Shown: in pieces, positions 33,079 to 34,300 of the stretch
Position numbering within the stretch: position 1 is the stretch's first letter
Layout of the letters: each line of letters starts with the position of its first letter
Assembly: GCA_031260125.1 (NCBI GenBank)
Contig: JAIRKM010000082.1
Coordinates: 1-34,543 of the forward strand
Length of the DNA: 34,543 bases
Source of the DNA: Helicobacteraceae bacterium
GTDB lineage: Bacteria > Campylobacterota > Campylobacteria > Campylobacterales > SZUA-545
Direction: 5' to 3'
Position numbers and translations under genes: made by a program
The notes under the pieces: model-generated
Databases searched by the model: none
Told to the model about the DNA's origin: nothing
Seen by the model: only the letters and a program-made list of their open reading frames with translations

Positions 33079-33106
33079 TTGACAATCAGTAAAGAGTAGC
33101 TAGAAT
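33079..33106 (+). promoter_or_regulatory. Sigma70 promoter of the RCC1-repeat lipoprotein gene
   Basis: TTGACA (33079-33084) and TAGAAT (33101-33106) are 16 bases apart, among the strongest promoter matches in the window. An AAAGGA site (33127-33132) and ATG 33139 follow. The remainder of the 214-base gap after prs (32925-33138) shows no other supported feature. Confidence 0.65.
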
Positions 33107-33138
33107 GTTCAAATCTAATTGAATCGAAAGGATCGTCA

Positions 33139-34196
33139 ATGTCGTTTGCTAATGCCTTAATGCGCATGGATCCCGCATCAAGCGATGCGGAAACCAGTAC
33201 ACCCCCCCCCCCCCCCCATTTTTAACTAGATCGCTGATAAGTTTAGCTTCCTCTGTTTTGTTTGTTTCGCTGCTGATCGTTGGTTGCGGCGGAGGCGGCG
33301 GCGACAACCCAAGCGAAGTTCAGTTCAAAACCATATCCGCTGGCGGCTTTCACTCCCTTGCCTTGTCCAATAACGGCAAGGTTTACGCGGCGGGATATAA
33401 CGAATATGGTCAGCTTGGTTTAGGCGACAATACCAATCGCAACGCCTTTACCGAAGTTGCCTCTTTAAGCGGTAAAAACATCACCGCTCTATCTGCTGGC
33501 TACGAACACTCCCTTGCTCTATCCAATAGCGGCAAAGTTTACGCGACGGGGTGGAACAACTATGGTCAGCTTGGTTTAGGCGACAATACCGATCGCAACG
33601 CCTTTACCGAAGTTACCGATCTAAGCGGTAAAAACATTATCGCTTTATCTGCGGGTATCTATCGCTCCCTTGCTCTATCCAGTAACGGCAAGGTTTATGC
33701 GACGGGACGTAACCACTATGGTCAGCTTGGTTTAGGCGACAATACCAATACAAATACCTTTAAAGAAGTTACCGATCTAAGCGGCATTACCGCTATATTT
33801 GCGGGCGGCAATTATTCCTTTGCCATATCCAACGATGGCAAGGTTTACGCAACGGGACGTAACAACTATGGTCAGCTTGGTTTAGACAACAATGACAATA
33901 AAAATACCTTTACTGACGTTACCTCTTTAAGCGGTAAAACCATTACCGCTTTATCTGCGAGCGACGAGCATTCCTTTGCCATATCCAACGATGGCAAGGT
34001 TTACGCAACGGGACGTAACAACTATGGTCAGCTTGGCTCAGGCGATAATACCGATTGCGACGCCTTTGCCGAAGTTAGCTCTTTAAGCGGTAAAACCATT
34101 ATCGCTATAGCTGTTGGCTACGAACACTCCCTTGCCCTATCTAGCGATCGCAAGATTTATGCGACGGGAGATAACTATTCTGGTCAGCTGGGTTAA
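33139..34196 (+). CDS. Phase-variable RCC1-repeat lipoprotein, out of frame in this sequence
   Basis: ATG 33139 has AAAGGA six bases upstream and a good promoter. As written, its frame passes the 16-C tract and stops at 33223-33225 after 28 residues. The RCC1 frame is open from the C tract to the TAA at 34194-34196, and one added (or two removed) C joins the two. The joined protein would start with a 49-residue leader. Its hydrophobic part (LISLASSVLFVSLLIVGC) ends in a lipobox, with Cys50 as lipidated residue, followed by GGGGGD. Six RCC1-type repeats of 50-52 residues (xxYGQLGLGDN, SLALSNxGKVYATG) follow, predicting a beta-propeller on the cell surface or in the periplasm. The only start near the lipobox in the RCC1 frame (TTG 33258) would lack a basic n-region and a ribosome site. 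The ligand is unknown. Confidence 0.8.
33202..33217 (+). repeat. Poly-C tract (16 C), candidate phase-variation switch
   Basis: There are sixteen consecutive C residues between codon 21 of the ATG 33139 frame and the lipoprotein signal sequence. Tract lengths giving remainder 2 on division by three (14, 17, 20) join the frames; 16 does not. Homopolymeric G/C tracts of this length are the usual slipped-strand contingency switches in Campylobacter and Helicobacter. The exact count in an assembly is uncertain. Confidence 0.9.
33405..34193 (+). repeat. Tandem RCC1-encoding DNA repeats, about 156-bp period
   Basis: The core TATGGTCAGCTTGG recurs at 33405, 33561, 33717, 33867 and 34023, with a sixth, altered copy near 34176 (steps 156, 156, 150, 156 and 153). 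Segments 33814-33880 and 33970-34036 are identical over 67 bases. Units one and two differ at one position over the 54 bases from 33405 and 33561. Conservation at the DNA level exceeds protein need, implying recent duplication or gene conversion. Confidence 0.85.
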
Positions 34197-34300
34197 GGCG
34201 ATAAAATCGATCGCAACGCCTTTACCAAAGTTACCGTTTGGGACGATTAAGATCGACGCTTTAATAAGCGCGAGTTAAGTTCTCTCTTAGTTTAACCCGC

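Follow-up and report, generated by a model that had tools for sequence, protein, structure and literature searches.

The window analysed here, a stretch of 34,543 nucleotides, is the complete contig C76 of a 1.64 Mb draft genome (G000, 87 contigs) from a Helicobacteraceae bacterium. Near its end it carries, on the plus strand, a lipoprotein gene with RCC1 repeats whose coding sequence is split by a run of 16 cytosines, and this gene is one of several in the genome that share the same 5' cassette. A sigma-70-type promoter (TTGACA-N16-TAGAAT, 33079-33106) was found in a scan with 11 of 12 matching positions. The scanned region is expected to hold 2.3 promoter-like sites by chance, and sequence related to this one is partly kept in the sister copies on contigs C69 and C31. 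The ribosome binding site and start codon lie within the common motif AAGGATCGTCAATG (33128-33141), with the ATG at 33139. A leader of 21 codons, MSFANALMRMDPASSDAETST (33139-33201), leads directly into the C16 homopolymer on the coding strand (33202-33217). Counted from the first base of the ATG, the tract thus begins 63 bases downstream and lies within the coding sequence, close to its 5' end. In the given sequence the leader frame ends at a TAA (33223-33225), and the window gene is OFF in the assembled consensus. A chance origin of the tract is ruled out by dinucleotide shuffles, in which only 0.03 runs of nine C are expected per window.

A lipoprotein signal peptide, FLTRSLISLASSVLFVSLLIVGC (33219-33287), follows the tract in a different frame and ends in the lipobox LIVGC, whose cysteine is encoded by TGC at 33285-33287. 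The signal was assigned by inspection of the sequence. A charged n-region, a hydrophobic core and the lipobox cysteine are all present (TRSLISLASSVLFVSLLIVGC) and are conserved in six copies. The same frame, which is not joined to that of the leader, encodes an RCC1-type beta-propeller of about six blades (33306-34193). It matches the Pfam family PF00415 with 217 bits against a curated cut-off of 21.7, including five full repeats, and PF13540 in six stretches. Its relatives in PDB are UVR8, HERC2, RPGR and RCC1. An AlphaFold2 model (mean predicted local distance difference test score 75, predicted template modelling score 0.79) could be aligned with UVR8-type structures, which have 361-386 residues, over about 295 columns; UVR8 itself is seven-bladed. 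The sequence-only reading that preceded this analysis had placed the promoter, ribosome binding site, ATG, C16 tract and early stop at these positions, and scan and translation located them there. The same holds for the frame that it described as open from the tract through a lipobox and RCC1 repeats; this frame is open to 34193.

Pattern searches of the genome were used to take a census of tracts and leader motifs. The motif AAGGATYRTMAATG occurs 12 times, always in a leader cassette, and a backward control pattern gives no occurrence. Nine of these sites are followed by a tract of C9-C16 at the same place, so that eight other genes have the same arrangement as the window gene. The remaining three belong to a tract-less RCC1 copy on C31, a site on C18 that is cut by the contig end, and a tract-less exported protein on C44 that adjoins a GLUG gene. 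RCC1 repeats are encoded on six contigs (C8, C14, C17, C69, C76 and C84); the copy on C31, at the edge of that contig, is additional to these. Every RCC1 locus whose 5' end is assembled carries the leader motif, and all except C31 have C13-C16 between leader and signal peptide; the first of the two C69 copies is cut at a contig edge, and its start lies outside the assembly.

Six of the nine tract-bearing cassettes precede RCC1 lipoproteins. The other three, on C1, C44 and C84, precede lipoproteins with GLUG-motif bodies that are unrelated to RCC1. Over the 75 bases that follow the tract, all RCC1 and GLUG copies share 79-97% DNA identity, and GLUG compared with RCC1 copies share 79-89%. Because genes with unrelated bodies carry similar DNA after the tract, the switch cassette is modular.

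Frame state differs among the nine cassettes. The GLUG gene on C1 is in frame through its tract, reading MPLTQAKIAFAPPPPHFLTKSLIGLVSFVSLLMIGCD..., and the others are not. Thus, among the eight copies whose leaders are intact, one is ON; in the ninth, on C14, a nonsense codon interrupts the leader. The earlier proposal of a poly-C contingency switch gains support from these nine genes, whose cassettes differ in tract length and frame and include one in frame. The locus is very probably a translational contingency locus and a member of a multi-gene set built on one cassette. Under this mechanism, a ribosome would start at the ATG at 33139, read the short leader and then decode the poly-C as prolines, and entry into the signal peptide and propeller would be set by tract length modulo three. 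Tract length would change through slippage during replication. The cassette, comprising the 5' untranslated region (UTR), ribosome binding site, ATG, leader, poly-C and signal peptide, would drive nine or more lipoprotein genes, whose bodies are of two unrelated types. If each gene switches independently, cells would arise with different combinations of surface lipoproteins. Comparison within the genome and with relatives fits such a switch, and slippage in vivo and ON/OFF switching probably occur. The glycine after the lipobox cysteine points to display at the outer membrane, where the propellers might have a binding role and where switching could alter adhesion and immune exposure or permit escape from phage, host or competitors.

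The sequence-only reading had also called for tracts to be compared in relatives. The comparison set consists of fifteen genomes of the family (G000-G014), one per species, and tract-less RCC1 genes among relatives have ordinary starts. The nearest protein outside the genome is an RCC1 lipoprotein, L132, of the metagenome-assembled genome Campylobacteraceae bacterium Nc350_bin201 (JAISXY010000049.1), with 62-64% identity (64% over the best segment). It is similar to the window protein but has an ordinary start codon and no tract, and its genome holds only two C9 tracts. RCC1 genes of genus g6 likewise have no tracts nearby, with a single exception in G010. In this other genus, locus L141 on G010:C10 (minus strand, 2622-2637) has a leader beginning MLSLLLRKIGL, a G16 run and then a lipoprotein RCC1 frame, which is out of frame. 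A general association of relatives' RCC1 genes with tracts is ruled out, since among those read in G004, G006, G007 and G010-G014 only the G010:C10 gene has one. In sister genera the cassette DNA matched only over short stretches that do not extend beyond the tract and its edges; in addition, G014 gave one match of 38 bases. These two cases suggest two or more origins of the RCC1 switch, one with poly-C and one with poly-G. In genome G013, genes for exported RCC1 proteins are densely arrayed head to tail (C147, C246 and C80; L042-L045), with 128 repeat matches in the genome and no homopolymer tracts nearby.

The abundance of tracts separates genera of the family. Genomes of the window's genus, g1, and of g6 contain 26-60 tracts of C9 or longer, and those of five other genera contain 0-1. 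The window genome itself has 26, of which three are apparently artefactual. No match to MutS1 (PF01624) was found in any of the ten tract-rich genomes, whereas three of the five tract-poor genomes gave one. MutL (PF08676, MutL_C) was matched in none of the fifteen family genomes and in 11 of 14 control genomes. Tract richness is possibly linked to loss of mismatch repair; because several of the genomes are incomplete, the association is to be read as a correlation only.

Several observations weigh against the contingency-locus reading. The frame of the window copy ends in a late nonsense codon, TAA at 34194-34196, that the sequence-only reading overlooked. The assembled RCC1 C-termini of C8, both C69 copies and C84 continue to ...FTKVTVW(D/N)D, and in the window a remnant of this family C-terminus, GDKIDRNAFTKVTVWDD, with its own stop (TAA, 34248-34250), can still be read in frame past the nonsense codon (34197-34250). 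The codon lies 17 codons before the family end and removes the last 17 residues, so the window copy would yield a truncated protein even in frame. It also lacks about one blade. Its complement is not seven complete blades but about six, the nonsense codon truncating the final strand; the C69 and C84 propellers have seven or more, and that of C8 three to four. Even when in frame, the modelled propeller may therefore form an incomplete ring. In addition, ratios of nonsynonymous to synonymous substitution (dN/dS) of 0.5-0.9 between paralogues are also compatible with relaxed constraint. Tract lengths and frame states represent the assembled consensus of one genome, and in a fragmented draft assembly homopolymer lengths are possibly miscalled. 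Seven of the eight copies with intact leaders are OFF, yet this count is not in itself contrary: if each were ON with a probability of one third, one or none would be ON with a probability of about 0.2, which is compatible with random phase and needs no special explanation.

The late nonsense codon and the count of about six of seven blades indicate that the window copy may be decaying, and it is probably decayed in part. The extreme form of this explanation treats the window copy as a decaying pseudogene within a phase-variable family, with a relic tract and no working propeller in either state, so that the mechanism would apply to its sisters only. Elsewhere in the family, the three to four repeats of C8 and the leader nonsense codon of C14 are in keeping with this explanation, as are the readable C-terminus beyond the stop and the missing blade in the window copy. 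But the loss in the window copy is limited to the last 17 residues, the remaining frame is intact over 325 codons, and the AlphaFold2 model folds as a propeller. Compared with tract-less L132, dN/dS is 0.18 for the window copy and 0.14-0.22 across the set, against 0.50-0.88 between paralogues, from which it appears that the RCC1 bodies are not long dead. These ratios fit genes that are kept by selection yet are diversifying or partly relaxed. We regard a pseudogene as unlikely, while taking it as the most serious of the alternatives.

A second explanation would abolish the OFF state altogether. If translation starts after the tract, or if the ribosome or RNA polymerase slips on it, protein would be made at any tract length. 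Long homopolymers can promote polymerase slippage, and the downstream frame does contain TTG codons. However, before the lipobox of the window copy there is no ATG and no GTG, and the sole TTG lies within the hydrophobic core, where a start would cost the signal peptide its charged n-region. Across the cassette copies, the TTGs differ in position, fall within the hydrophobic core and lack a ribosome binding site. Comparison of the copies for a downstream-frame start codon common to all of them, or one with a ribosome binding site, found none; an internal start after the tract is ruled out on these grounds. The leader and its ribosome binding site are conserved in 12 copies. Moreover, the tract-less sister on C31 runs as one open frame from the same leader ATG straight into the signal peptide, reading MSFAQSNAVARMDRLSIGLVFSVLFASFLLIGFGGG, so no internal start is needed. 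Since C31 and the in-frame C1 copy are each a single frame from the leader ATG, this ATG is taken as the start, and protein synthesis irrespective of tract length is highly improbable. In the C31 copy (C31:100-217, minus strand), the lipobox cysteine is replaced by phenylalanine.

Least probable of all, by a small measure, is an assembly or sequencing artefact, whether real tracts of miscalled length that make ON and OFF meaningless or spurious poly-G; the draft state of the assembly (87 contigs) and suspect runs at some contig ends lend it something, but nine tracts of differing length occupy corresponding positions in homologous cassettes, and other genera of the family were assembled with 0-1 tracts. 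The suspect runs, of 64, 20, 20 and 17 C, lie close to contig ends, some of them in C-rich sequence, and are probably sequencing or assembly artefacts (C57:1-90, where the contig opens with C64 plus C20; C22:32777-32796; C56:72-88).

Elsewhere in the genome, tracts occur in genes that encode TonB receptors, a glycosyltransferase, methyltransferases, a sugar dehydratase, tetratricopeptide repeat (TPR) proteins, a thiamine pyrophosphate (TPP) enzyme and a TetR regulator. The first four are classic phase-variable classes, and some of the others are unusual. For example, the tract at C37:468-477 lies in frame in the TetR-type regulator, and that at C40:4252-4263 lies out of frame in the gene with the TPP-enzyme domain. 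Two further genes, at C2:1-10 and at position 13657 of C77 (minus strand), have a different shared leader that ends in CTCCCTTCA before the poly-C. The gene on C77 codes for TPR repeats; contig C2 has its first base inside the tract.

Phase variation driven by simple sequence repeats is well known, including in multi-gene families with a tract in the leader such as Neisseria Opa. The opa genes, with pentamer repeats in their signal-peptide leader, resemble the present set in encoding multicopy surface proteins that each have their own tract and switch frame independently. In contrast, the tract here is a single-base poly-C that precedes the signal peptide of a lipoprotein, and the same cassette is used for two unrelated bodies. 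The likeness lies in the mode of working only, since the window body is RCC1 and not an Opa beta-barrel homologue. The poly-G/C phasome of Campylobacter and Helicobacter is similar in having G/C tracts of at least nine in TonB receptor, glycosyltransferase and methyltransferase genes, with MutS1 and MutL unmatched here, but a survey of those contingency genes makes no mention of RCC1. In C. jejuni, G/C tracts of eight or more switch expression (PMC6321876). RCC1/UVR8-like beta-propellers, including bacterial BLIP-II, have the same repeats and fold; the proteins described here differ in being lipoproteins with a signal peptide and a phase-variable leader, and the window copy comprises about six blades instead of seven. 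Among the papers searched, none combines RCC1 with phase variation and lipoprotein, or RCC1 repeat with phase-variable. The mechanism is known, but no description of this kind of cargo or of the shared switch module was found.

A broader proposal, to which we give even chances, is that the cassette is a portable switch-and-export unit of UTR, ribosome binding site, leader, poly-C and lipoprotein signal peptide that recombination has carried to surface domains unrelated to one another. In this uncultured Campylobacterales lineage it would have produced a repertoire similar to that of Opa, in which propellers and GLUG proteins switch independently and blade number adds a second level of variation. 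A second genus would have arrived at the same RCC1 arrangement by means of poly-G.

Slip-prone tracts in relatives of Campylobacter probably govern propeller lipoproteins in addition to sugars and receptors, with one cassette reused on different cargo. The set offers a case in which the building of phase-variable families can be tested, as can the coincidence of tract richness and absence of MutS within a single bacterial family.
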